A stretch of 64,000 nt of DNA from positions 1-64,000 of the forward strand of contig WGMG01000005.1 of the NCBI GenBank assembly GCA_016125185.1, given 5' to 3'. The notes under the pieces were generated by a model that was given only the letters and a program-made list of their open reading frames with translations, was not told the origin of the DNA and searched no databases. Shown piece after piece: positions 1 to 60,859 of the stretch (position 1 is the first letter of the stretch; every line of letters begins with the position of its first letter). Both the position numbers and the translations under genes were made by a program. This stretch comes from Armatimonadota bacterium. Lineage in GTDB: Bacteria > Armatimonadota > Fimbriimonadia > Fimbriimonadales > Fimbriimonadaceae.

Positions 1-615
1 ACCTTCCACCACCCGAGCGTCCTCGGGAGGACCATCACAAAGAGTTTAAGACACGAGCCCGGGGTGCTTGCACCCCGGGATTTATCCGAAAACAGTCAAA
101 GTCCGAGGAGTCCCGAGAGTCGGGACGACCCGGGCGAAGCTGGGACTTACCAGTGATGGTAGGTGAGCATTCAGCCTCCTCCCCACCGCTTCACTGCGTT
201 CAGCGACTCCCCCTGGGAAGTAGCGTGGTTACAAGGCTTGAATTGAGTTGATCCCAATTCGCCATTTTGCAATAGTCCGTGTATGGTGATGTACCGACCA
301 GACTTCGAATTCCGAATATCCACGCTACTCCACGGGGGGAGTCGCTGAGCCGACCTTAGGCGAAGCGGTGGGGAGGATTCATTGGCGGGCGTGACGCCCA
401 CCTTCCAACGCGGCGAGACAAGTCTCGCAGGATAGAGCGCGGACAAGTCCGCGCACTCAACATCACCTGACCTCCCTCGCCCTAGCGAAGCGAGCCCTTG
501 TGCCAGCATTCATCCCGGAGTCTCCCAAGGGAGCAGCGTGGTTACGGGGCCTGAATGAAATTCATACCAACTCGCATCCGTTGCCAGAGCTTGAAATGGT
601 TAGCTCAAGCTGGGA
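1..615. repeat. Gene-free mosaic repeat block 1
   Basis: No credible gene is seen here. From left to right it holds a hairpin element around 54-150 (palindrome GCCCGGGGTGC/GCACCCCGGG, then GAGTCCCGAGAGTCGGGAC), an inverted-end unit at 174-380, an element at 383-485 containing the palindromes GCGAGACAAGTCTCGC and GCGCGGACAAGTCCGCGC, and part of a second inverted-end unit at about 505-600. The same pieces recur in the blocks near 6.3-7.3, 11.2-12.0, 20.8-21.3, 23.6-24.1, 26.3-26.7, 37.2-38.4 and 50.4-52.3 kb. Open frames inside it are products of the repeats. Confidence 0.85.
174..380. repeat. Repeat unit of about 200 bp with long inverted ends (type A/B)
   Basis: The left end (174-232) reads TCCTCCCCACCGCTTCACTG and continues GCGTTCAGCGACTCCCCC. 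The right end (319-380) is an imperfect reverse complement, running CCACGCTACTCC, GGGGGGAGTCGCTGAG, GCGAAGCGGTGGGGAGGA. The core between them (about 233-318) contains CCAATTCGCCATTTTG and AGTCCGTGTATGGTGATG. The same core and ends appear at 37705-37890 and 50757-50985. A diverged core lies between similar ends at 21033-21252. Mobility is not shown: I see no coding capacity and did not establish target duplications. Confidence 0.75.
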
Positions 616-6227: not shown

Positions 6228-6297
6228 GGTTCACCTGTGGTTCGCGCGGCCTGTTGGCCTCCCACTAAATTGCGAAGCAATATTGTACCTGAGAAAT

Positions 6298-7325
6298 GGC
6301 TTTTAGCTTCTAGCCGCAAGCTTCTAGCTTGTGGCTTGTGGCTTGTGGCTTCTAGCTTGAGGCTATCTTCCTCCCCACCGGCTCGCTTCGTTCGCCATCC
6401 ACATGAATCCTGCCTTTGTGGCAGGCTCCATTGCGGACCCTCCCCAGGGAGTAGCGTGGTCAATCGGAATTCGAAAGCGGGTTTGCATTAGCTTAAGTCA
6501 AGCCGACTAACCGAGATGCCCCTTGAGGAAGGGGCCGGTGAAATTCGAGGTACGAGGATTGAACCGGGGGATAGTTGATAGCTTCGCTTTGGGCCAAGCG
6601 CTTACCAGTGCCACCACTTAGCTTTTGCGAGCCTGACCATTAATGATCCTCCCCACGGCTTCACTGCGTTCAGCCACTCCACATGAATCCTCCCCACGAC
6701 TTCACTACGTTCAGCGACTCCACATGAATCCTGCCTTTGTGGCAGGCTCCATTGCGGACCCTCCCCAGGGAGTAGCTTGGCTATTTGGAAATCGGGGGTG
6801 GGCGGTGAACATTTCTGCTTTCAAAATTCGGACTTTTACAAAATGGCGAATTGGTATGAACTTCATCCGAACCTAGTAACTACGCTGCTCCCTGGGGGGA
6901 GCCGGTGAGTCGGGCCGTAGGGCGAACCGGAGGGGAGGAGGTTGATCGCATCCGTTCTAGCGGACGTTTTTACCAGTGCCACCGCTGAGCTTTGGCGAGC
7001 TTGACCATTAATGATCCTCCCCACGACTTCACTGCGTTCAGCCACTCCACATGAATCCTCCCCACCGCTTCACTACGTTCAGCGACTCCCCCCAGGGAGT
7101 AGCTTGGCTATTCCGAAATCAGAGTCGGGCCGACTAGCAAAGATGCCCCTTAGCGAAGGGGCCGGTGAAATTCGAGGCACGAGGATTGAACCGGGGGATA
7201 GTTGATAGCTTCGTTTTGGGCCAAGCGCTTACCAGTGCCACGTCTGGCTATGGTGGGCAAGATGCCCACCCTCCCAATGGGATGGCCTCGACTTACAAGG
7301 GCTTGCAGCTAGAAGCTAGAAGCTC
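6298..7325. repeat. Gene-free mosaic repeat block 2
   Basis: No gene is supported. The block starts with a 7-bp periodic tract (6302-6366). Then come a CCTGCC-TTTGT-GGCAGG hairpin element (about 6402-6460, again near 6725-6780), stem-loop elements with CCCCTT...AAGGGG and CCGGGGGATAG (6512-6577 and 7142-7203), pieces of the type A unit (6645-6790 and 7012-7110 plus strand; 6875-6945 reversed), and a GGGTGGGCAAGATGCCCACCC hairpin region near 7250-7275. Parts of 6510-6780 recur at about 6980-7250 in another order. The block separates rplA from the flotillin operon. Confidence 0.85.
6302..6366. repeat. Degenerate 7-bp tandem repeat (CTTCTAG/CTTGTGG)
   Basis: About nine heptamers follow without a break: CTTCTAG, CCGCAAG, CTTCTAG, CTTGTGG three times, CTTCTAG, CTTGAGG. 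A short relative in the opposite sense (CTAGAAG twice) ends the same block at about 7308-7325, and a purer heptamer array occurs at 50987-51028. Heptameric repeats are known as STRR in cyanobacteria; a link is only an analogy. Confidence 0.8.
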
Positions 7326-7332
7326 CCAGCCA

Positions 7333-8643
7333 CTACTTCTTAGGCGGTTCCTCGGGCGGAGGCAGGTGCGGGTTCACCGGCGCCGGAGAGGAAACATTCA
7401 CGTTAATCGGATTCGGGTTGCCGAGATTCTTGATCTTGTCCACCACGTCGATTCCGAAAACTTCCTTGGCCTGAGTCGCCATGTTCACGAGCGCGCCCAT
7501 CTGGCTACCGCCTTTGCTTCCACCCGAGACGATCGTCAGTTGCTCGACCGGCGTTGTAGAGATCGAATCGCCGATCGCGCGAATCAACGGCTCTAGCTTC
7601 TGAGAAAGCATCATCTCTCGGGCGCTTGGGCCCGCGGCTTCCCACGCCTCCGCCATCGCTCGCAGGGCGTCGCCTCGCGCCTGGCCGTCGGCGATCAGGT
7701 TGGCATATTGCGCCTTCGCCTTGGCCTGAGCGGCCTCTGCCGAGGCCTTGGCTGGCTGGACCACTTCGGCATCCAGTTTGTTTCGGACCTGATCGTATCG
7801 CGCCGTCTGAACGTTGACTTCGGCCTTCGCCTTGGCCACTTCCGCCGCGACGACCGACAGTTCTTCGGCCACGACCGCCGCTCGTTGGGTGGTCGCATCG
7901 ACGAGACGTTTTTCGGCGTCCGCCTTAGCGGTTTCGATTTGACCCTGGATAACGGCTCTCTGCTCCTGCTCGCGGTTCTCCGCCGACCGAATGATCGATT
8001 CGGCTTTGGCTTTGGCCTCGGCGATTCGTGCCGAGCTAATGACCTCAGCTCCTCGTTTTCGACCCATCGAGTCGAGGTACTTGACCTCATCGTGAACGTT
8101 CTGAATCTTGAGCGTATCGACCACGAGCCCGAGGGTCGTCATGTCGGTTTCAACCTCGTGGACCAGCCGCTCGGCAAAGAGAATCTTGTCCTCGTTCACC
8201 TGCTCCGGCGTCATCGTGCTGAGTACACCGCGCAGAGATCCCTCCAGCGTGGCCTTGGCGATGGCCATGATTTCTTCGCGCTGCTTGCCAAGAAAGCGCT
8301 CGATGGCGTTGTTCAGCACCGGCTCGTGTCCGGCGATCTTGACGTTGGCCACCCCTTGCACCGTCAGCGGTATTCCGCCTTTGCTATAGGCGTTGGACGC
8401 GCTCACGTCGATCGGCATGTTGGTCAGGTTGATCCGATCCACACGCTCCAGGAACGGGATTCGGATTCCCCGCCCGCCTTTCACCAGCCGATAGCCGTAT
8501 TCCCGTGTGCCGTCCTTTCTTCGTCCGCCCGAGAAGATCAACACTTCGTTCGGCGCGCAAATATAGATCAGCGAGGGAAGGCTGAGGAGGAAAATCAGAA
8601 TGAAGAAAATGATCACGCCAATGACGATTGCGGCTCCGGTCAT
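7333..8643 (-). CDS. Flotillin-like SPFH domain protein
   Basis: The protein has 436 residues. One N-terminal membrane segment (about 4-28) is followed by PNEVLIFSGG, an SPFH/band 7 domain to about residue 200, and a long Ala/Glu/Lys-rich coiled coil (about 200-340) typical of flotillins. The C-terminus is proline-rich. Flotillins scaffold membrane microdomains. It overlaps the upstream paralogue (8640-9962) by four bases (ATGA), and an NfeD-like gene starts the operon, an arrangement known for flotillin/NfeD pairs. It is not a duplicate of recent date: the two proteins are diverged throughout. The repeat block begins directly after its stop. Confidence 0.9.
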   Translation of the reverse strand: MTGAAIVIGVIIFFILIFLLSLPSLIYICAPNEVLIFSGGRRKDGTREYGYRLVKGGRGIRIPFLERVDRINLTNMPIDVSASNAYSKGGIPLTVQGVANVKIAGHEPVLNNAIERFLGKQREEIMAIAKATLEGSLRGVLSTMTPEQVNEDKILFAERLVHEVETDMTTLGLVVDTLKIQNVHDEVKYLDSMGRKRGAEVISSARIAEAKAKAESIIRSAENREQEQRAVIQGQIETAKADAEKRLVDATTQRAAVVAEELSVVAAEVAKAKAEVNVQTARYDQVRNKLDAEVVQPAKASAEAAQAKAKAQYANLIADGQARGDALRAMAEAWEAAGPSAREMMLSQKLEPLIRAIGDSISTTPVEQLTIVSGGSKGGSQMGALVNMATQAKEVFGIDVVDKIKNLGNPNPINVNVSSPAPVNPHLPPPEEPPKK

Positions 8644-11169: not shown

Positions 11170-11960
11170 GCCCCGTGGCTAATCCGTCATTCCGAAAGCT
11201 TGTCGTCTATCCCTCGGTTCGATTCTCTCACCGATCCCTTCGCCAAGGGATAGCCTTGTTTGACCGAGGCATTCGTCTTCTAGTCCTGCCCGCCGGCTCG
11301 CTTCTCTCGCCTTCCACATGAATCCTCCCCACCGCTTCACTACGTTCAGCGACTCCCCCCAGGGAGTAGCTTGGCTATTTGGAAATCGGGGGTGGGCGGT
11401 GAACATTTCAGCCTCAAGAGTCAGGCTCAAACAAAGTAGGTGAGTAGGTATCAACTCACTTCAAGCCTAGTAACTACGCTGCTCCCTGGGGAGGGTCCGC
11501 ATGAATCCTGCCACAACGGCAGGATTCATGTGGAGCCGGTGAGTCGGGCTGTAGGGCGAACCGGAGGGGAGGAGGCTGATCAGTCACCTACCAACAATGG
11601 TAAATCCCAGCTTCGCCTTCCTTCGTCCTCCTACTTCGGACTTCGGCCGACAAGCACGCGTCTTTGCCAACTTTGGTGGGCAGGATGCCCACCTTCCCAG
11701 TGGGCTGACCTCCCTTTGACTTCGACATGAATCCTGCCTTTGCGGCAGGCTCCATTGCGGACCCTCCCTGTGGAGTAGCGTGGTTCTTCGGAAATCGATG
11801 GTGAGGCGGTGTGCCGTTCAGTCTCCGATCTGGCATCAACTCGAATCGGGCCGACAACCCTAGATGCTCCTTGAGGAAGGAGCCGGTGAATGAAATGAAC
11901 CGGGGGATAGGCGGCTGCCTCGTCTTTGGTCCAACCACTTACCTGGACCACCCATTTCCA
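11170..11960. repeat. Gene-free mosaic repeat block 3
   Basis: No gene is supported. Visible parts: a reversed stem-loop element with CTATCCCTCGG...CCGATCCCTTCGCC (11205-11258), a type A end (11318-11390), a reversed type A end interrupted by a CCTGCCACAACGGCAGG hairpin (11468-11575), a GGTGGGCAGGATGCCCACC hairpin (about 11671-11690), another GCCTTTGCGGCAGGC element (11728-11790), and a CCTTGAGGAAGG/CCGGGGGATAG element (11862-11912). The order differs from every other block. Confidence 0.85.
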
Positions 11961-20844: not shown

Positions 20845-21260
20845 CTGGGCTTCTCGGGGGCCCAGGCGTCCCGCCTGTGGTTTGCGCGGACTTGTCCGCG
20901 CTTTCGTAGGCGAGACTTGTCTCGCCGCGTTGGAAAATGGTGCCACAAAGGCAATATTTTCTGAGGATGGAGCAAATCGGAATCGCCCGCCAGGAAGACG
21001 AGTATACGAATGGAGTGCGGGGTGCACATCAATGAATCCTCCCCACCGCTTCACTGCGTTCAGCGACTCCCCCCAGGGAGTAGCTTGATTAGTAGGCTCG
21101 GCATGAGTCGATGCCAAATCGCATTTCTATTGTAAATGCCTAAATTTGGAAGGCTGAATGGTGCGTTGACTCGACCTCGATTTCTGAATAACCACGCTAC
21201 TCCACAGGGGGGAGTCGCTGAGCCGACTTTAGGCGAAGCGGTGGGGAGGAGGACTCTATG
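20845..21260. repeat. Gene-free mosaic repeat block 4
   Basis: 20875-20935 holds the palindromic element in reverse (GCGCGGACTTGTCCGCGC, GGCGAGACTTGTCTCGCC). 21033-21252 is a complete inverted-end unit: TCCTCCCCACCGCTTCACTG at the left and CGAAGCGGTGGGGAGGA at the right, with a core diverged from the unit at 174-380. The remaining 190 bp up to the alpha-galactosidase gene contain only the terminator-like hairpin at 21404-21431 and a stem GGCTATCTC...GAGATAGCC (about 21263-21307). Confidence 0.85.
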
Positions 21261-21403
21261 CGAGGCTATCTCTTCGTGTTGGAGCGTGGGCGCGGTGAGA
21301 TAGCCCCGGGTGGCACGTATAGGTGCGATGGAGTCGGGCGCTTTGGATACTGGCCCATCCACCTATGCGTGAGGGGCTGGCCGAATCAGCGGATTTTCAC
21401 TTC

Positions 21404-21431
21404 CCGTCTCCTGACAAGAGTCAGGAGACGG
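21404..21431 (-). terminator. Strong hairpin after the alpha-galactosidase gene
   Basis: A perfect 12-bp stem CCGTCTCCTGAC/GTCAGGAGACGG with a four-base loop lies 18 bp beyond the stop at 21449. A U tract is lacking on the minus strand, so it may terminate inefficiently or protect the 3' end. Confidence 0.6.
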
Positions 21432-23599: not shown

Positions 23600-24085
23600 T
23601 CCAAGTTTTGACCATTCAATCCTCCCCACCGTCCCGATGTCGCTTTGCTCCATTTTCCTTCGGCGGGATCTTAGGAGTTCATTGCATTCACCGACTCCAC
23701 ATGAATCCTGCCTTTGTGGCAGGCTCCATTGCGGACCCTCCCCGGGAAGTAGCGCGGCTATTCCGAAATCGATGTCGAGTCGGTATCAACTTAATTCGGA
23801 CCGACTAACCAAGATGCCCCTTAGCAAAGGGGCCGGTGAAATCCGAGGAATGAGGATTGAACCGGGGGATAGATGAAAAGCTTCCGACGAGCCGACTAAC
23901 CACGCTGCTCCCTGGGGGGAGCCGGTGAGTCGGGCTGTAGAGCGAACCGGAGGGGAGGAGGCTGATGGCACATTCACTAACACTGGTAAATCCCAGCTTC
24001 ACTTTCCGATTCCGCTCCGCTTCTCGGAATCGCATATGCGTCTTCCTGCGGGCGTGACGCCCACCCTCCAACCCCGCGAGTACCA
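23600..24085. repeat. Gene-free mosaic repeat block 5
   Basis: It contains a CCTGCCTTTGTGGCAGG element with flanks (23698-23765), a CCCCTTAGCAAAGGGG/CCGGGGGATAG element (23814-23873), a reversed inverted-unit end CTGCTCCCTGGGGGGAGCC...GGAGGGGAGGAGG (23895-23965), and GGCGGGCGTGACGCCCACC-type sequence near 24050. No gene is supported. Confidence 0.85.
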
Positions 24086-37164: not shown

Positions 37165-38437
37165 GACATCAGCCGCAAGTCTTCGTAAAACGAGGCTATC
37201 CCTTGGCGAAGGCAAATGGAGAATAGCGACATCGGGACGGTGGCGAGGATTCGTCGATGGTCAAAGGGGGTCAGCCCCCTGGGAGGGTGGGCATCTTGCC
37301 CACCAAAGCGAAATCGTGTCCTTGAAGACGAGGCTGTCGCCTATCCCCCGGTTCACGATGTTCACCGGCCCCTTCCTCAAGGGGCATCTTGGCTGGTCAG
37401 CACGATTTAGGTTGATGCACCGACTCGACCTCAATCTCCGAATAACCACGCTACTCCCAGGTAGGGTCCGCAATGAATACTGCCACAAAGGCAGGATTCA
37501 TGTGGAGTGGCTGAACGCAGTGAAGCCGTAGGGAGGATTCGTGGATGGTCAAAGGAGGTCAGCCCCCTGGGAGGGTGGGCATCTTGCCCACCAAAGCGAA
37601 ATCGTGGCACTGGTAAAGGCGTCTGCTTGTCCGCCGAAGTCCGAGGGACGAGGACGAAGGAGGGCGAAGCTGGGATTTACCAGTGTTGGTTGGTGAACAT
37701 TCAGCCTCCTCCCCTCCGGTTTGCTTCGCGCACCGGCTCCCCCCAGGGAGCAGCGTGGTTACTAGGCTTGAAGTGAGTTGATACCAATTCGCCGTTTTGT
37801 AAAAGTCCGTGTTTGATAGTGCACCGACTCGACCTCAATCTCCGAATATCCACGCTACTCCCAGGTAGGGTCCGCAATGAATCCTGCCATAAAGGCAGGA
37901 TTACAAGCCTTGTCCTCGCAGGACAAGGCTATCCCTTGGCGAAGGGATCGGTGAGAGAATCAAACCGAGGGATAGACGACAAACTGCAACGAATACCCCT
38001 CATTGGCGTATCGCGGTTAGTACGCGTCAGAGATGACGGGACGGCTCCATCGAAAAGAGACTTTTTTCCCCATACCGATGTCGCTACGCTCCACCTCATG
38101 CAAACGTGCCTCTGTGGACCTTTGCACAAGGGCTCTTCCTTCGGCGGGATCTAAGGAGTTCGCTTCGCTTACCGTCTCCTCCGTGGAGCAGCGTGGTTAG
38201 TCGGCTCGTCCGAAGCTTTTTCACCTATCCCCCGGTTCAATCCTCGTTCCTCGGATTTCACCGGCCCCTTCTTCAAGGGGCATCTTTGGGTTGCCGTCAA
38301 AATCAGAGGCCGTTGTGGTTCGTACTCTCAACTTCAATTCCTAAGTAGCCACGCTACTCCAAGGGAAATCGCGCTTCCAATCGTGCCACAAGGGCCGTCG
38401 TGATTACTCGGCGTGACTCAGGTTGATACCAACTCGC
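37165..38437. repeat. Gene-free mosaic repeat block 7
   Basis: No gene is supported in 1.27 kb. Visible parts: two copies of AGGTCAGCCCCCTGGGAGGG / GGGCATCTTGCCCACCAAAG (about 37263-37310 and 37555-37606), reversed stem-loop elements (37332-37388 and 38224-38285), CTATCCCTTGGCGAAGGGAT...CCGAGGGATAG (37928-37975), a complete inverted-end unit with the common core (37705-37890), and GCAGGATT hairpins (37480-37503 and 37880-37903). Neighbouring copies are close relatives, for example 37255-37310 and 37550-37606. Confidence 0.85.
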
Positions 38438-50429: not shown

Positions 50430-52330
50430 GGGACGATTGAGGGCAAGGGCTTTCTACTTTCTGCCGAACCCACTTTGGGGGTGCTCAAGCCTGCTTCGCT
50501 GGCTGGTAGGGCCCATTCCCTCTCCGGTTTCTCGCAATGCGAAAAAGGGAGGGGAAAATCCATTGTCGTGACCGATCAAAGGAGTGCGGCCCATTGGGAG
50601 GGTGGGCATCCTGCCCACCATAGTTTGACGCGGCCCTGGTAAAGACGTCTGCCTTTTTGCCGAAGTCCGAGGTTGGAGGGTCACCAGTGCTGGGTAGTAG
50701 GCGTCACGCCCGCCAGGAAGACAAGTATACGAAAGGAGTGCGGGGTGCAAATCAATGAATCCTCCCCACCGCTTCACTGCGTTCAGCGACTCCCCCCGGG
50801 AAGTAGCGTGGCTAGTACGCTTGAACGAAGTTCATACCAATTCGCCATTTTGGAATAGTCCGTGTATGGTGATGCACCGACCAGACTCCGGATTCCGAAT
50901 AACCGCGCTACTCCCTGGTCCGCAATGGAGCCTGCCTTTGTGGCAGGATTCATGTGGAGTGGCTGAGCCGACCTTAGGCGAAGCCGTAAGCCTTAAGCCT
51001 TAAGCCTTAAGCCTTAAGCCTTAAGCCTTCGTAAAACGAGGCTATCCCTTGGCGAAGGGATCGGTGAGAGAATCGAACCGTGGGATAGATGACAAACCTC
51101 CGCAATAACAAGAGAACCACGCGGGAGTGTCTGAGATTAAGGGACTGCTCGGTCGAAAAGAGGCCATCGACTATCCCCCGGTTCGATTCTCTCACCGGCC
51201 ACTACATTTCTGCCTTTGTGGCAGGATTCCTTGGATGTTCCTAGACCTAGCGAATCACACCCTTTGCCTGCCTTCTGTGCTCAGCGCCACTGTTTATGCA
51301 GTGCCCCTACTTGTCTTGGAACGACCTCGGAGAGGTCGCAGAGCTTAGCCCGGGGTGCTTGCACCCCGGGAATTGTCCCGTATCAGCAAAGGGCCCGAGG
51401 AGTCCCGAGAATCGGGACTGGGGATAGAAATCCAGACCCGGCGCTCCATCCACCAAGCGCACAAACACTGACCAATGCAGGGCTGAAGGCCCGTTCTAAC
51501 TTAGCCCAGCCCAACCGGGCTGGGTAGAAGGTCGAGGCAAGAAAAGTCCGAGGAGTCCCGAGTATCGGGGCGACCCGGGCGAAGCCCCTTTGGCGGGCGT
51601 GGCGCCCAACCTCCAACCCCGCGAGACAAGTCTCGCCCCGATTCCGCTTCGCGTCATCCTCAGAAAATAGTGCCTTTGTGGCACTATTTTCCAAGGGCTC
51701 TTCCTCTCTTCGCTCGGCGGGGTCCAGCGACGTGCCAAAGCGTCCCGATCCTCGGGACGCACTCCAAATCGCCTGACCTCCCGCGCTCTGCTTTCTGTAC
51801 TCTGCGCCCTGCGCCCCTACCGTCCAACAACGACCTCGGAGAGGTCGCAGAGCTTAGCCCGGGGTGCTTGCACCCCGGGAATTGTCCCGCACACGAAGAA
51901 AGTCCAAGGAGTCCCGAGTACCGGGGCGACCCCGCCATTATGGCGGTCACAAAAGGTCATCCACCCCGTCGCTTCGCGACACCCCTCCAAGCTTTGGAGG
52001 GGAGATGGTTTTGACCCTGCTTCGGTGCTACGCGAGCAACTCCCTTTGAACCCTCAAAACCTCTGATCAAAGATTCATGCGTTCGCCCTGAGCCTCGGCG
52101 CTGAGGGTGCGGTCCGGGGTTGTCCCGCTCATTGAGCAACCCACATCTTGTCCACCAAAGCCACCCGGCCCCGGCTCATGATGAGCCAAAAACTAGAAAA
52201 GACAAGATTTACATTGCACAAGAAAAATATTGTGCAATTCTCCTCCTCTTCTCAAGGAACGCAATATTGGGCTGGGCGGGAACTTCGTGACGCCCGCCCT
52301 CCAACGCAGCGAGACAAGTCTCGCGCAAAC
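50430..52330. repeat. Gene-free mosaic repeat block 8
   Basis: The longest block; 50344-52443 shows no credible gene. Visible parts: GTGGGCATCCTGCCCACC (50600-50620), a complete inverted-end unit with the common core (50757-50985), a 7-bp array (50987-51028), stem-loop elements (51036-51095 and reversed 51170-51200), three copies of the CGGAGAGGTCGCAGAGCTTA / GCCCGGGGTGCTTGCACCCC element (51325-51380, 51834-51885 and a partial one near 51540), palindromes GCGAGACAAGTCTCGC (51620-51640, 52309-52325), and AAAATAGTGCC/GGCACTATTTT (51664-51692). Confidence 0.85.
50987..51028. repeat. 7-bp tandem repeat (TAAGCCT)6
   Basis: Six uninterrupted copies of TAAGCCT lie at the junction between the inverted-end unit and a stem-loop element. 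It is not a CRISPR: there are no spacers. Confidence 0.9.
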
Positions 52331-52443: not shown

Positions 52444-55023
52444 TTACGGCCCCGTTCCCGGTTCACGGTTCACGGCATCCAACATCACCGCCAAACTCGC
52501 CTGGGACATCTTAATACGCGGGTGGTCAGGGTTAAGAACTTCAAGACTGCTATCGATCACTTTTCGCATAAGAGCGATCGCCTCGTCTCGCCGCCCCAGA
52601 TTCCAATAGGTCCAAGCTAGGTTGTTCATCGCCGACAGGGTTTCGGGATGGCGCGGACCGGAAATCTCGGTCCTTAACTCCAGTACTTCTTCCATCAGCT
52701 TCAAGGCTTCTTCATGACGGCCAAGTTCGACGTAAGTGGAAGCCAGGTTATTCATCGCCGTTAAGGTGTCAGGGTGGCGTGGACCGGAAATCTCGGTCCT
52801 TAACTCCAGTACTTCTTCCATCAGCTTCAAGGCTTCTTCATGACGGCCAAGTTCGCTGTAAGTGGAAGCCAGGTTATTCATCGCCGCCAGGGTGCGGGGA
52901 TCGCGCGGACCAAGAATCTCGGTCCTTAACTCCAGAACTTCCTTTTGAAGGTTCAACGCCTCTTCGTGACGGCCAAGCGCACTATAGGTCCTGGCCAGGT
53001 TGCCTTTAGCCGTCAACGTGTTCCTGTCTCTTTCGCCAAGGTTCTCTCCAGAAAGTCGAACTGCGGCCTCATGCAGAGCAGATGCTTCGGTGTAGCGACC
53101 GTGGGCATCGAGGATCGATCCGTAGACACTCAAGGCCAAGAGTCGCCATCGATCCGATTCGGGCAGAAGCCGTTCCGCCAGACGGTACGCTCGTTCGGCT
53201 TCGGCCAGTATGCCGATCCCGCCCCATGCCTGAAAGCCATGATCGGCGATGATGTATAAGCATTGAATCACGGCTTCGGATTCCGGCGCTCGCTCGGCGA
53301 GGAAGCGCCAAACCGGAACCAGACGCTCGCGGGCTTGCCAGTCTTCGAATTCTTGGCCAGGATCAGCTAAGTCTGCCGCCCACGCTAACGCTTCGTACCG
53401 CTTCGGTTCTCCATCCTCTGCACCCGAATCGAGCAGGCGGACGATGCGCTGAAGGTGGCGGTGCATCGTCAGCAAATCGTGCTCGGAATCGACATGGATC
53501 AGTGATTGGTTCCGCGCGGCAAGGATCACGTTGTCCAGCGACATCCCTTGCAACGATTCGACGACCTCACCGTACTTGACGCGAAAAATCTCGGGTGGAA
53601 TGCCGTCCGGTGGCAGGTACGCACACCACCGCACCAATTGCCCTGCCTGTGGGCACGCTTCGTCTAGATGCTTCAGCGAAAGCTCGACGGTTGCGTAGGC
53701 CGGCTCGTGCTTCAGACCCAAACCGTCGGCCGCTTCTTTCGAAAGTTCGGCAAAGCGCGCGCGAAACTCGGCCAAGTACTTCGCCGGTCTCCACTGATAA
53801 GCAAACGCCGTCGCCCCTGCTTGGTCCAGGGCAAGCTGATAGCCGTCTACGTCGCGGCTCAACTCCAGCGCCGCCGCCCGATCCTCTTTCGAAAACGAAT
53901 CGAACGAAGCCTTTTCTCGGTTCAATGCCCGGCGCAAGAACATCAACGCTCCTTCCTCTTCCGGCAACTTCTCAACGCGAATCGTCGTCGCCAGTTGTCC
54001 CCAATGCTCCCGCCGCGAGGTAATCAGCACATGCGGACCATGAAGGTTGAGCAAGGCGTCGATGAACCCGACATCCTGTCCCAACTCCTTGGCTGCCGCC
54101 TCATCCTGAGCACGCAACCCCTCCAGGTCGTCCACGTTGTCCAGCACGACCAGGCATTCGCTCATCTCGCGCAAAGTCTCCCGCATTCGCAACGCCCGTT
54201 GCAGACCCACGTTCGGCTGACCCTCCAGCCCGTCATCCTTGCCAAACGTCCGCTCACACGCTCGCGCCAAGTCCGTCTGCAATGCCGCCCGGTCGCGTCC
54301 GCTAAACCAAAACACTCGCTCGTACTCGTCGGCAAACCGTTGGCAGTACTGCAAGGCAATCTCCGTCTTGCCGATGCCGCCCTCGCCCACCAGCCCCGCC
54401 GCCTGACCGAGGCTCACATGCCCCGTCGCCAGCTTGGTATGCACCTCCGTCAGCACCTCCTCCTGCCCGGTAAAGTACGGCGTCGGTCGGTTGGGAAGCA
54501 TCCAAAGTTTGTTGGGTACCGCCGAAGGTTTCGGAGCGAACGGCGACAAACCGACCGGCGGAATCTCGGGCCGAACCTTGTGCAAGGCCCGCAGAAGCTC
54601 TTGGTAGTTGTCTTCCGAGTAAGGTCGTCTAGCGAGGTCGATAAAGTATTTGCCCCTGGCATAGATCGGCAAAGAGGTCCCCTTGTCGCCCGATGCAATC
54701 ACGGGGATGAACTTTCGATGGTTCTCGTCGTACAGGATTTCGCTGGTGATGATATCGCCTTCGTAAGCGACTGCGCCCTTCCTCTCATCAGCCCGAACCT
54801 TGTATTTTGGAGTGCAGATGATGACGACGAAATCGTTGTCGGCAACCGCCTGCTCCATGAAGTGCGGAACCTGGTCGCCAGGCACCGAGTGCCATTGGTC
54901 GAGAATAGTCTCTACGCCATCGTTTCGCAGACGAGTGGCTAGTTCTCGCACCCAATCTTTGTGAGTGTCGTCATCCCACGAATAAGAAATGAACGCGGTT
55001 GGAGTCTTCTTTGGTTCGTCCAT
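52444..55023 (-). CDS. SEFIR-STAND ATPase-TPR protein, possible defence effector
   Basis: The protein has 859 residues. The N-terminal SEFIR domain (about 8-150: AFISYSWDDDTHKDWVREL; DFVVIICTPKYKVRAD) is a TIR relative. An NB-ARC/STAND ATPase follows with Walker A GEGGIGKT (213-220) and a Walker B-like ECLVVLDNVDDLEG. A helical middle and TPR repeats in the last 180 residues complete it; three TPR units are nearly identical. SEFIR and TIR-STAND proteins are known as anti-phage sensors that act by ligand-triggered oligomerisation. The cyclase-STAND gene lies 111 bp upstream in the same orientation, and they may be co-transcribed. Confidence 0.88.
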   Translation of the reverse strand: MDEPKKTPTAFISYSWDDDTHKDWVRELATRLRNDGVETILDQWHSVPGDQVPHFMEQAVADNDFVVIICTPKYKVRADERKGAVAYEGDIITSEILYDENHRKFIPVIASGDKGTSLPIYARGKYFIDLARRPYSEDNYQELLRALHKVRPEIPPVGLSPFAPKPSAVPNKLWMLPNRPTPYFTGQEEVLTEVHTKLATGHVSLGQAAGLVGEGGIGKTEIALQYCQRFADEYERVFWFSGRDRAALQTDLARACERTFGKDDGLEGQPNVGLQRALRMRETLREMSECLVVLDNVDDLEGLRAQDEAAAKELGQDVGFIDALLNLHGPHVLITSRREHWGQLATTIRVEKLPEEEGALMFLRRALNREKASFDSFSKEDRAAALELSRDVDGYQLALDQAGATAFAYQWRPAKYLAEFRARFAELSKEAADGLGLKHEPAYATVELSLKHLDEACPQAGQLVRWCAYLPPDGIPPEIFRVKYGEVVESLQGMSLDNVILAARNQSLIHVDSEHDLLTMHRHLQRIVRLLDSGAEDGEPKRYEALAWAADLADPGQEFEDWQARERLVPVWRFLAERAPESEAVIQCLYIIADHGFQAWGGIGILAEAERAYRLAERLLPESDRWRLLALSVYGSILDAHGRYTEASALHEAAVRLSGENLGERDRNTLTAKGNLARTYSALGRHEEALNLQKEVLELRTEILGPRDPRTLAAMNNLASTYSELGRHEEALKLMEEVLELRTEISGPRHPDTLTAMNNLASTYVELGRHEEALKLMEEVLELRTEISGPRHPETLSAMNNLAWTYWNLGRRDEAIALMRKVIDSSLEVLNPDHPRIKMSQASLAVMLDAVNREPGTGP
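52621..52998 (-). repeat. Near-identical 126-bp tandem repeats coding TPR units
   Basis: Three 126-bp units (starts 52621, 52747 and 52873) are almost identical, with a fourth diverged unit from 52999. Each codes 42 residues containing GRHEEALKL and EISGPRHP. The identity at DNA level shows recent expansion or gene conversion of the sensor part. Confidence 0.9.
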
Positions 55024-55134: not shown

Positions 55135-57861
55135 TCACAGACCCGCCGCGTCCTCCAAGCTCATTCCCTGACCCAACCGATAAGCCTCCTCGAAAGCCGC
55201 ATCCCCGATCGCCGAGCGCACAGCGCCTTCCGTCGCCGACCGACGCGCCATCAGCTTCTGCGGAAGCTCCGCCCTGGTCTGTTCCCGAAGGCTATCCGCT
55301 TTGCCGTATGCCTTGGCCGCATCCACCAAGCTCCCCTGAGTCCGAACCAAGAGTGTAGCCAGCACTTCCAGCGCATCCGCCATGAGGCGCAGCACACTGT
55401 TCTCCGAGGCAAACCGGAGGGCTGCCGACAAATACCGCCGAGCTCCGTCCACATCGCCAAGCTCCAACAACGTCGCCGAAAGATTCTGAGCCGACCTTGC
55501 CGCCATTCGAGGATGGTGATTTTCCTCTGCCAGCCGCAAAGCCTCCAACTGGACTTCGGCCGATTCTTCGAATCGACCCATTGTGTAGAGCAGATACCCG
55601 AGGTTGCCAAAATTGGCGGGCGGAGCGTCGGTGTCCCCGATCTCCTTCGCCTTCGAAATTGCCTCTCGAAGGAGGGCTTCAGATTCGATATCGTCGCCAA
55701 GTTGGCACACCGCCGCACCTAGGCTGCGGAGAACAGCGGCCTCGCCGATCTTGTTGCCGACCTCGCGCTCAGCCTTGAGTGAATCGCGAAGCAGCGGCAC
55801 CGCCTTCTCAAACTCTCCTAGCACGATTTGGTGGTTGGCCATGGCCCGCACGGCGGCAGTCTCCAAAAGCTTGTCACCCACCTGGCGAGCAATGGCTAAC
55901 GCTTCGTCGAGGTGATCTATCGACTCGGAATATCTGCCCAGCGGGCCCGCCATCGCCGATGCCGTCATCAGCGCTTGAGCGCGGGTCCGTGGTTCACCGG
56001 GCGTCGTCTGAAGGAAGGCTGTCGCCCATTCGTATCCCTCTTGAAAACGGCTTCCTCGACTCCAAAAGATGCGCATAAAGCCAATGAGCCGTAAGGCGGT
56101 CTCCGCCCGCTCGGGGTCGTCGCTCGCCCACATGAGGGCGGCGCGGATATTGTCGGTCTCCGCCGAAATAGCCTCTTGCCACTTGGCTTGATCGGGCCCA
56201 TGAAACAGCCGGTCGCCTTCTTCGGCCAGTTGGGTGATGGCTTCCAAATGACGATCTCGCCACACATCGGCCCTACTCCCCACGAGCTTTTCCGACGCAT
56301 AGTCGCGCACGGTTTCCAGTATTCGGTACCGGCTGGTTTCGCTGTCTCCTTCCAAGAAAATCAGCGATTTTTCCACTAAATTGGAGAGCAGGTCGAGGAC
56401 GTCGAACTCATCCACGATGTCGTCGCTGCACACCCGCTCGGCCAGCCGCACCGTCCATCCGCCGCGAAAAACGCTCAGGCGCAAAAGCAACTCCTGCTCC
56501 GCCTCCTGTAGAAGGTTGTACGACCAATCGATCAGGCCCTCTAGGGTCTGTTGACGCTTCAACGCCGTTTTCGACCCGCCTGTCAGCAGACGGAACTTCT
56601 GATCCAACCGACTGGAAATGTCCTGGGCCGACATCGAACGGAGACGAGCGGCGGCGAGTTCGATGGCCAGAGGAATGCCATCCAAGCGCGAACAGATCGA
56701 GGCCACCGCTGGGGCGTTCGCGTCCGTGACTCGGAAGTCGTGCCGGGCCAGACGGGCGCGCTCGACGAAGAGCTGTACCGAATCGCAATCGGCCAGAACG
56801 GAGGCGTCCACATTGGGCTTCGGCGTTGCCAACGACCGAACTCGGTACACCTGCTCCCCCGAGATGCCGAGGGCCTCGCGGCTGGTAGCCACAAGGCGCA
56901 GATTTGGGCACGCATGAAGCACTTCGTCGATGAGCTCCGCCGAGGCATCCAGCACATGCTCGCAGTTGTCGATGACGATCAGCATCGCCTTGTCTTTGAG
57001 TCTCTCGACCAAGGTTTGGGTCATCGTTCGCCCTTCCTCCGACCGATATTTGAACACGTCGGCCACGGCATTAGGGACGAGCTCGGGGTCGGCTAACGGG
57101 GCGAGATCGACGAACCAAACGCCGTGGGCAAACCGCCCCACCTGGTCGGCGGCAAACTCGATGGCGAGGCGGGTTTTGCCGGTGCCGCCCATGCCAGTCA
57201 GGGTGAGAAGCTGAGCTTTGGTGCTCAAAACTTCCAGGTCGAGCCGTTCGAGCTCACGACCAATGAAGCTGGTGCGGGGTCGGGGGAGATTGTTGGGCCG
57301 GTTATCCAGCGTCGCAAGAGCGGGAAACTCCTGGTCGAGGTCGGGGTGGTCGAGTTGGAAAACCTCGTCGGGGTGCGAGAGGTCGCGGAGGCGATGGGTG
57401 CCCATCGAGCGAAGTCCGGCTTGTTCCGGCAGTTGGTTTTGGACGGCTTCGCTTGCCGCGCCTGAGACCAGAACTTGGCCGCCGTGCCCAGCCGAGAGCA
57501 GGCGTCCCACCACGCTGAGCGTGACGCCGAAGTAGTCGCCGTCGCGCTGATGCGCCTCTCCGGTGTGAACCGATGCCCGAACCCGGATCGTCGCGCCCGG
57601 TGGCCAGTCAGCGGCTTTGAGCCGCTTTTGAATCTCCAGGACGGCCGCGACCGAGGCGGTCGGAGACTGAAACGCGGCGCAGAAGGCGTCGCCGACGGTC
57701 TTGAAAACATAGCCGCCGTGTTGCTCGATGGTTTTGCGGAGCAGAACGTCGTGAAGCTCTAGCGCGACTTTCATCGCCTCTGGCGATTCTTGCCAAAGGC
57801 GGGTGCTCCCCTCGATATCAGTGAATACAAAGGTGACGGTTCCGCAAGGTATTTCGACCAT
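55135..57861 (-). CDS. Class III nucleotidyl cyclase-like, STAND ATPase, TPR protein
   Basis: The protein has 908 residues. The cyclase domain (about 1-175) has the metal aspartates D15 (FTDIEGSTRLWQ) and D58 (KTVGDAF), and D109 in GDYFG. The transition-state Asn expected in VNxAxRL is Ser116 (TLSVVGRL) while Arg120 is kept, so activity may be reduced. The STAND ATPase has Walker A GMGGTGKT (223-230), VIDNCEHVLDAS and GIPLAIELAAARL. TPR-like helices fill residues 600-880. Its first 59 codons are duplicated at 59621-59797. Proteins of this type are usual regulators in Actinobacteria and Chloroflexi; the target is unknown. Confidence 0.9.
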   Translation of the reverse strand: MVEIPCGTVTFVFTDIEGSTRLWQESPEAMKVALELHDVLLRKTIEQHGGYVFKTVGDAFCAAFQSPTASVAAVLEIQKRLKAADWPPGATIRVRASVHTGEAHQRDGDYFGVTLSVVGRLLSAGHGGQVLVSGAASEAVQNQLPEQAGLRSMGTHRLRDLSHPDEVFQLDHPDLDQEFPALATLDNRPNNLPRPRTSFIGRELERLDLEVLSTKAQLLTLTGMGGTGKTRLAIEFAADQVGRFAHGVWFVDLAPLADPELVPNAVADVFKYRSEEGRTMTQTLVERLKDKAMLIVIDNCEHVLDASAELIDEVLHACPNLRLVATSREALGISGEQVYRVRSLATPKPNVDASVLADCDSVQLFVERARLARHDFRVTDANAPAVASICSRLDGIPLAIELAAARLRSMSAQDISSRLDQKFRLLTGGSKTALKRQQTLEGLIDWSYNLLQEAEQELLLRLSVFRGGWTVRLAERVCSDDIVDEFDVLDLLSNLVEKSLIFLEGDSETSRYRILETVRDYASEKLVGSRADVWRDRHLEAITQLAEEGDRLFHGPDQAKWQEAISAETDNIRAALMWASDDPERAETALRLIGFMRIFWSRGSRFQEGYEWATAFLQTTPGEPRTRAQALMTASAMAGPLGRYSESIDHLDEALAIARQVGDKLLETAAVRAMANHQIVLGEFEKAVPLLRDSLKAEREVGNKIGEAAVLRSLGAAVCQLGDDIESEALLREAISKAKEIGDTDAPPANFGNLGYLLYTMGRFEESAEVQLEALRLAEENHHPRMAARSAQNLSATLLELGDVDGARRYLSAALRFASENSVLRLMADALEVLATLLVRTQGSLVDAAKAYGKADSLREQTRAELPQKLMARRSATEGAVRSAIGDAAFEEAYRLGQGMSLEDAAGL

Positions 57862-57886
57862 TCCCCAGACTTATTATAAGCCGTTC
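57685..57886. repeat. Cyclase 5' region, copy 1 (in the intact gene)
   Basis: The first 177 bp of the cyclase gene plus about 25 bp upstream. 57685-57882 aligns without gaps to 59621-59818 (offset 1936) with few mismatches, and 57811-57886 is identical to 60784-60859 (offset 2973). Confidence 0.9.
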
Positions 57887-58112: not shown

Positions 58113-59648
58113 ATGGCACTGATCGGCGGAGCATGGCTGGCAAAAGAATACGGCATCGAGCCGGTTCAACCCTTGCGGTATCAAAGCAAGATCGGCGCGT
58201 CGCGCCTGCGTCATTTTGAATCTGGAATCTGGAGGAATCAGTTCCCTCCCCAGTACCAACCGCCCAACACCATCGCTGGGCACCTGGAATTCATGTTTCG
58301 CCACGAGGCCGTCCACCTCGAATTTTTCTACCGACTCTTCCGGACCATCGATTCCAACGAGCTTGCGGGATGGATTCGTTCGGCACCGACGGGCAAATAT
58401 GCTCGCCGGGCCGGATTTTTCTACGAGCACCTCACCGGCTTGGAACTCGACTTCGAGGGCGTTTCCAACGGGGGATACGTCGACGCGCTCGAGCCCGACC
58501 GCTACTTTACGAGCTCGATCGCGACTAATGACCAGCGCTGGCGGGTTCGACATAATCTGCCGGGCACCTCGTGGGCGACCCCGACCGTCCTCCTGACCGA
58601 CGAGGTGAAGGAGGCCATGCGCTACGACATTAGGGCCCAGTGGCAGGAGCTCGAACGGGAATTCGGCGCCGACCTCCTTCTCAAAAGCGCCGTCTGGCTC
58701 ACCACCAAAGAGAGCCGGGCCAGCTTCGCCATCGAGCATGAACAGGACGATACCGACCGCACCCAGCGGTTCGCCCGGGCGATCGCTGAATTTACCGGTC
58801 GGTACGAGAATCCCTTTGATATCCAGGCCCTCGAAAACCTCCAGAGAGCGATTCTCGGCGAGAATGCAACCCGTTATGGCCTGCGCCGCTCGCCGATTTT
58901 TGTGGGAGAGCAACGTTTAGCCGGGCAGACGGTGCACTACATTGGTCCGCATTACAACGAACTCGAACGACTGCTCAACGAACTTCGCACCCTCGACCTT
59001 CGGACAAGACACGCGAATTCGATCGTGAGGGCGGCCATCCTCTCGTTCCTGTTCGTATACATCCATCCGCTCTCCGACGGCAACGGCCGGGTTTCCAGAT
59101 ATTTGATCAACGATGTTTTCCGCCGAGACGGAGAGATTGCCGACCCATTCATCATTCCCGTTTCGTCGGTGATTAATTCGGCGATGCCCGACTACGACCG
59201 CGTCCTGGAGCAGTTCTCCAAGCCCTTTATGGCCCACTACCAGGGCCAGTATCGGTTCGGGCAAGAGGTGACCTACGAGGACGGCGTGATCTCCAATTTC
59301 GCGTTCGACGCCTACGACGACGCCCTCATCCCGCTCCGCTATCCCGACCTGACCAACCACGTGGCGTACCTCGCCCGGGTCGTTCGCCAAGGTATCGAAA
59401 CCGAAATGGTGGAGGAGGCCCGCTACCTGCTTGGCCACACCAACGCCCGAAAGGCGCTGAACGAAGTCATCGAGGGGTCCTCGCACGACCTCGACCGCAT
59501 GATCCGCTCGATTCGGCAGAATCAAGGAGCGGTGAGCGGCAAGCTCAGAGCCGAATTCCCGATTCTTGAGAATGAAGGGATCGCTTCGAGGGCGTCGCAG
59601 GCGGTGATGCAGGCATTCGAGGCATCGCCGACGGTCTTGAAAACATAG
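58113..59648 (+). CDS. Fic family protein (probable AMP-transferase)
   Basis: The protein has 511 residues. The Fic motif HPLSDGNGR (318-326) keeps the catalytic His318, the acidic residue and the GNGR phosphate loop; Leu replaces the usual Phe. An N-terminal region (about 1-150) is of unknown type. Fic enzymes modify proteins, usually by AMP transfer, and are often toxins or bacterial signalling factors. The last ten codons run into the duplicated cyclase fragment (from 59621), so the natural C-terminus was replaced. The upstream 150 bp are AT-rich, with TGATAA-GGAAAG-TTATCA at 58043-58060. Confidence 0.9.
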   Translation: MALIGGAWLAKEYGIEPVQPLRYQSKIGASRLRHFESGIWRNQFPPQYQPPNTIAGHLEFMFRHEAVHLEFFYRLFRTIDSNELAGWIRSAPTGKYARRAGFFYEHLTGLELDFEGVSNGGYVDALEPDRYFTSSIATNDQRWRVRHNLPGTSWATPTVLLTDEVKEAMRYDIRAQWQELEREFGADLLLKSAVWLTTKESRASFAIEHEQDDTDRTQRFARAIAEFTGRYENPFDIQALENLQRAILGENATRYGLRRSPIFVGEQRLAGQTVHYIGPHYNELERLLNELRTLDLRTRHANSIVRAAILSFLFVYIHPLSDGNGRVSRYLINDVFRRDGEIADPFIIPVSSVINSAMPDYDRVLEQFSKPFMAHYQGQYRFGQEVTYEDGVISNFAFDAYDDALIPLRYPDLTNHVAYLARVVRQGIETEMVEEARYLLGHTNARKALNEVIEGSSHDLDRMIRSIRQNQGAVSGKLRAEFPILENEGIASRASQAVMQAFEASPTVLKT

Positions 59649-59797
59649 CCGCCGTGCTGCTCGATGGTTTTGCGGAGCAGAACGTCGTGAAGCTCAAGCG
59701 CGACTTTCATCGCCTCTGGCGATTCTTGCCAAAGGCGGGTGCTCCCCTCGATATCAGTGAATACAAAGGTGACGGTTCCGCAAGGTATTTCGACCAT
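59621..59797 (-). pseudogene. Truncated copy of the cyclase gene (first 59 codons)
   Basis: From the ATG at 59797 the frame copies the cyclase start (MVEIPCGTVTFVFTDIEGST) through KTVGDA. At 59621 it leaves the homology and continues antisense to the Fic gene to a stop at 59522. The copy includes about 20 bp upstream of the start. It cannot make a working cyclase. Confidence 0.9.
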
Positions 59798-59840
59798 TCC
59801 CCAGATTCATTATAAGCGGCTGACCACCATCTACCGATTA

Positions 59841-60783: not shown

Positions 60784-60859
60784 CTCGATATCAGTGAATA
60801 CAAAGGTGACGGTTCCGCAAGGTATTTCGACCATTCCCCAGACTTATTATAAGCCGTTC
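60784..60859. repeat. Cyclase 5' region, copy 3
   Basis: 76 bp identical to 57811-57886: the first 51 bp of the cyclase gene in reverse plus 25 bp upstream. It follows 18 bp after the nucleotidyltransferase stop. Being identical to copy 1 while copy 2 differs, it points to two separate duplication events or conversion. Confidence 0.9.

Follow-up and report, generated by a model that had tools for sequence, protein, structure and literature searches.

The window, the 64,000-nucleotide stretch analyzed here, covers the first part of a 139.7 kb contig (C5) in the 4.52 Mb genome of an Armatimonadota bacterium, which is assembled in 13 contigs. Its DUF1501 protein has the nearest match among other genomes, at 71% identity, in a MAG named Chthonomonas sp. 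UBA2362, and this one protein points to an armatimonadote as the probable source. It carries a repeat of about 200 bp with inverted ends and no coding capacity, and it raises the question of what kind of element this is and how it spreads. The initial annotation saw in it the layout of a MITE. The repeat unit is a real, recurrent element: genome-wide we find ~11 complete units of about 200-225 bp and, besides these, at least five units that carry an insert or have a partial arm. Four contigs (C3, C5, C10 and C12) account for nearly all units, and ends also occur alone, as had been observed before, both inside tracts and on C1, C2, C6 and C7. The unit belongs to BIME-like palindrome mosaics with further hairpins inserted. 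The mosaic tracts (Table 1) are intergenic, lying between the main ORFs, a location expected of REPIN or REP sequences.

Each unit contains a conserved core of ~85 bp flanked by two modules in inverted orientation. The core pattern CCAATTCGCCNTTTTGNAANAGTCCGTGT has three exact matches in the window, within 174-380, 37704-37861 and 50757-50987, and a fourth match with two mismatches at 6826-6854; 100 shuffles yielded none of either kind. An end motif of 37 nt occurs five times with three or fewer mismatches and is absent from shuffles. Ends and core had been described as shared at three places. The core is present at all three, and two of them are without an intact right end: in the supposed full copy at 37705-37890 the outer part of the right end is missing and an insert takes its place, and in that at 50757-50985 the insert sits inside the right end. 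Among the places first named, only 174-380 and 21034-21253 are therefore complete, the latter having both ends and a diverged core, as reported.

Table 1. Units, modules and palindrome mosaic tracts of the window (positions in bp).
Feature	Position	Strand	Remarks
Complete unit	174-380	+	Inverted doublet of hairpin modules around conserved core
Left end module of unit 174-380	177-231	-	Mini-hairpin type ACTGCGTTCA
Core between modules of unit 174-380	232-316	+	Contains CCAATTCGCC and AGTCCGTGT
Right end module of unit 174-380	317-380	+	Mini-hairpin type GCCGACCTTAGGC
Palindrome mosaic tract	6369-7287		Upstream of ribosomal protein L1 gene; gap 1105 bp here vs 167 bp in relative G002
Unit in reverse orientation	6740-6939	-	One end with insert, other end of CCGGT-GA type
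Single end module	7053-7110	-	Without its own core
Palindrome mosaic tract	11202-11951
Unit in reverse orientation	11320-11580	-	Insert in one end
Palindrome mosaic tract	20883-21429		Convergent genes on either side
Complete unit	21034-21253	+	Core diverged
Palindrome mosaic tract	23630-24000		Divergent genes on either side
Palindrome mosaic tract	37171-38289
Unit with CCTGCC insert hairpin	37704-37902	+	Insert in place of right outer module
Two adjoining palindrome mosaic tracts	50547-52125		Acido-Lenti-1 hairpin at 51479-51524 (-)
Unit with CCTGCC insert hairpin	50757-50987	+	Insert (about 50915-50955) inside right module

Other repeats in the window are three tandem 126-bp repeats (52559-52936; similarity 71-72%) in the 3′-terminal part of the reading frame 52444-55023 (minus strand), and stretches of 93-100% identity repeated 1-3 kb apart (57684-57881, 59620-59817 and 60784-60859).

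The end module is ~58-65 nt long and has the form TAACCACGCTACTCCC-x-GGGGGAGTCGCT-GA-mini-hairpin-GA-AGCGGTGGGGAGGA, in which the mini-hairpin varies among copies (GAACGCAGTGA, GAGCCGACTTTAGGCGA, GAGCCAAGACATGGCGA and GAGAGGCACGAAGTGTCTCGA). The earlier description of imperfect inverted ends of about 60 bp holds, with the two ends of a unit about 74-81% alike, and needs the addition that each end also contains its own small swappable hairpin. Across 20 modules, hand-picked for diversity and including four from the relative G009, 95.5% of the cells of two local hairpins are paired, so that the modules have a conserved hairpin as REPINs and REPs do. Covariation in these hairpins is 0.271 vs 0.107 in shuffles and falls to 0.045 or less when the partners are slid; there are 18 two-sided changes vs 4.2 in shuffles, and here too sliding the partners removes the signal. 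The GA/GA internal loop is mostly retained and the stems below it vary (CGCT/AGCG, CCGGT/ACCGG, CGTT/AACG). By likeness to known YGAR motifs, the loop may form sheared G-A pairs. An outer pairing of 5′ CTCCCC with 3′ GGGGAG inside the module was rejected, as it has no covariation. By eye, an end module of G009 (L036, 1501-1650) has another hairpin, CTTGTAAAAGGTTGCCACAAGGGCAAGCTTTTATGAG, close to the position of the CCTGCC insert.

Compensatory changes had been named as the sign of a conserved RNA, and a terminator, mRNA stabilizer or sRNA retained for its RNA fold would account for the local covariation and for the very stable predicted folds of complete units (about -110 to -132 kcal/mol, on both strands). 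Hairpin covariation cannot tell RNA from single-stranded DNA. The compensatory changes are present in the local hairpins within the ends and absent from the long end-to-end stem, where matched changes on both sides were not found. The left and right modules of the same copy score 36.4 vs 39.6 after permutation; the two ends of one copy resemble each other no more than ends from different copies do. Since its two sides vary independently, a structured RNA with a long end-to-end stem is disfavored. An Rfam search of the unit gave no match at E up to 1, only a few relatives have the element at all, and its orientation to genes is not fixed, with tracts between convergent, divergent and tandem genes. 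We consider a transcript-level element very unlikely.

The modules form doublets. Of the 19 neighboring module pairs less than 300 bp apart on the four repeat-rich contigs, 15 are inverted with their outer ends outward (one is opposite and three are direct), and two modules inverted around a spacer is the arrangement of REPINs. The two mini-hairpins differ in type in 16/16 doublets (chance 0.010 or 0.018 under two null models; 0.044 or 0.12 for the 11 complete copies alone), and because the types were assigned by eye and the test was chosen after the pattern was seen, this is at most suggestive of doublets avoiding two identical mini-hairpin types. Such avoidance could stem from perfect palindromes being unstable. 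Enterobacterial REPs are reported to form loop heterodimers, and differing loops are common to the doublets here and the enterobacterial GTAG-3 dimers (PMC3733652). G009 has about 26 modules, none of them arranged as such a doublet by coordinates, and the core was not found in that genome.

Where copies in the tracts diverge, GGAG stands exactly at the homology start for 83 of the 1702 distinct breakpoints, which derive from related copies and hence are not independent, vs a mean of 20 per offset scanned. GGAG ranks first among the 256 tetramers at homology starts. The canonical foot of most REPs is GT[AG]G; the preferred boundary here is GGAG and not GTAG or GT[AG]G. A GTAG adjoins GGAG in GGAGTAGC, yet by eye it is not at the hairpin foot. 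The insert hairpin GGTCCGCAATGGAGCCTGCC-ACAAA-GGCAGGATTCATGT is itself flanked by two GGAG feet. It had been noticed, as CCTGCC-TTTGT-GGCAGG, at the same place in several copies, and BLAST indeed finds it at the same place of the end module in many (12 on C5, three on C3, two on C10 and three on C12). The suggestion that one element had inserted in another agrees with this, one hairpin element being found within another.

Much of C3 and C10, as well as the initial 23 kb of C5, has its orthologues on a single contig of the relative G002. Five orthologous gaps, picked because their lengths differ, measure 49 vs 2001, 165 vs 2397, 167 vs 1105, 91 vs 1471 and 89 vs 1344 bp (G002 vs here), and the first two long gaps (2001 and 2397 bp) seem to contain other sequence too, perhaps genes. 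Two cases stand out as clearest: C3:27285-28630 and window positions 6277-7383, in which about 0.92 kb of the 1.1 kb is tract. At other tract sites, gene content differs, the G002 gap is little shorter (C3:31056-32246, 1189 vs 928 bp) or the region is rearranged. The search for empty sites in relatives that had been advised thus gives short gaps in G002, in intergenic sequence whose divergence prevents an empty site from being defined to the base. A solo module at galK is absent from G002, where the intergenic sequence is not alignable. The carB 3′ region was dropped as an empty site, as the sequence downstream is not syntenic. An exact DNA pattern search of a contig database, which possibly does not include the records of this genome, returned no match. 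Because modules are rare in relatives other than G002, gain of the units here is a simpler reading than loss in G002, the one relative whose gaps were compared.

Absence from the orthologous gaps in G002, together with size, inverted ends and lack of coding capacity, is what a classical MITE would display, with terminal inverted repeats, a DDE transposase and a target duplication. What stands of the MITE proposal is a non-coding repeat with varied flanks that a relative lacks at orthologous sites; the classical form is not supported by the end anatomy and target sites. The left and right ends are unmatched and their local hairpins are under pairing constraint. The proposed look for target duplications found none above chance at nine solo modules (mean longest flanking direct repeat 3.0 vs 2.98 random). 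Single-strand (Y1/HUH) insertion makes no target duplication, so their absence fits insertion of that type and counts against a classical MITE, which we regard as highly improbable.

The genome encodes 13 Y1 genes, vs 22 in G002 and 26 in G009. With Y1 genes this numerous the enzymes are available, and we infer their link to the modules. A transposase with matching ends, which had also been proposed as a check, was sought in the Y1 class: none of 67 Y1 loci (this genome's full set of 13 and part of the relatives' Y1 genes) has a module beside the transposase gene, the one match being of 66% (E 0.026), and thus no cognate RAYT was found among them. Hairpins with a GGGAG foot flank two RAYT-like genes (L045 and L049) and have further copies in the mosaic tracts.

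The Rfam hairpin Acido-Lenti-1 (RF01687) is, like the module, a short hairpin repeat in the same mosaic tract (Table 1), and its sequence is unrelated to that of the module. It is found on both sides of an IS200-like Y1 gene in G009 (L110:1384-1428 and 2151-2195) and beside an IS200-like Y1 gene in this genome (L042:1915-1960). Acido-Lenti-1 may be the end hairpin of IS200-like elements and not an sRNA.

The tracts might instead have spread chiefly via homologous recombination, gene conversion and segmental duplication, with a unit that is not currently transposing. Flank modules are common to several copies in different left-right combinations, two stretches inside one tract are near-identical (6602-6721 vs 6970-7089, 94%), contigs end in tracts, and gene order changes vs G002 at some tracts. 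Common flank modules, expected also from recombination or segment duplication, count against a REPIN-like reading, as do the long gaps that hold unique or possibly coding sequence beside the element. However, on C1, C2, C6 and C7 solo modules occupy unrelated sites whose flanks are unique, and plain recombination does not predict the GGAG preference of homology boundaries. Recombination as the chief route is unlikely, although the varied combinations of flank modules make it very likely that homologous recombination between tracts contributes. Since contigs end inside palindrome tracts, some tract joins, and apparent rearrangements relative to G002, may be assembly errors.

The four repeat-rich contigs comprise ~226 kb, about 5% of the chromosome. 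The searched module families cover 1.5-7.5% of these contigs vs 0-0.6% of the other stretches of the genome that were sampled. Contamination or a foreign replicon was rejected: the GC and tetranucleotide make-up of C3, C5, C10 and C12 resembles that of the other contigs (correlation with C6 0.91-0.98), and the ribosomal L1 gene in the window further counters a foreign origin. GC skew of the contigs does not switch clearly in a way that could account for the clustering, except in the first 10 kb of C12.

The best fit, and a probable one, is a REPIN-like, non-autonomous repeat that is moved as single-stranded DNA with the help of homologous recombination. We predict that the modules fold in single-stranded DNA, and that a candidate RAYT- or IS200-type Y1 (HUH) transposase cuts and joins them in trans beside the GGAG foot. 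New hairpins would land beside the GGAG feet of older hairpins, which would produce the nesting, and homologous recombination between tracts would then shuffle arms and flanks.

As in REPINs (Bertels and Rainey 2011, PMC3116915), two inverted palindromic modules surround a spacer and singlets occur elsewhere, and the unit is extragenic and MITE-like with no gene of its own; unlike REPINs, the modules are about 60 nt, the foot is GGAG and not GTAG, no cognate RAYT was found at the 67 Y1 loci, and units are confined to few contigs. BIMEs and GTAG REP dimers (PMC3733652) share with these tracts the mosaic structure and REPs inserted in other palindromes, whereas sequence and foot differ and many hairpin families are nested per tract here. 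Class 3 Y1 proteins (PMC6006769) are similar in that high-copy hairpins with an atypical foot occur in genomes with Y1 genes; those hairpins, with their CnGA foot, lie on the flanks of the Y1 gene, whereas no module was found flanking a Y1 gene here.

It is conceivable, if on balance doubtful, that these features make up a REP-like GGAG-foot system in which hairpins nest by insertion at earlier feet, RAYTs with same-foot REPs act in trans, doublets of identical modules are barred and spread stays within one region of the chromosome. This one genome has hairpins in empty, filled and doubly filled states next to each other, so that insertion order and site preference are directly readable. If RAYTs here do act on the modules, this would be cross-mobilization between REP families, and regional confinement would make local REP spread testable.
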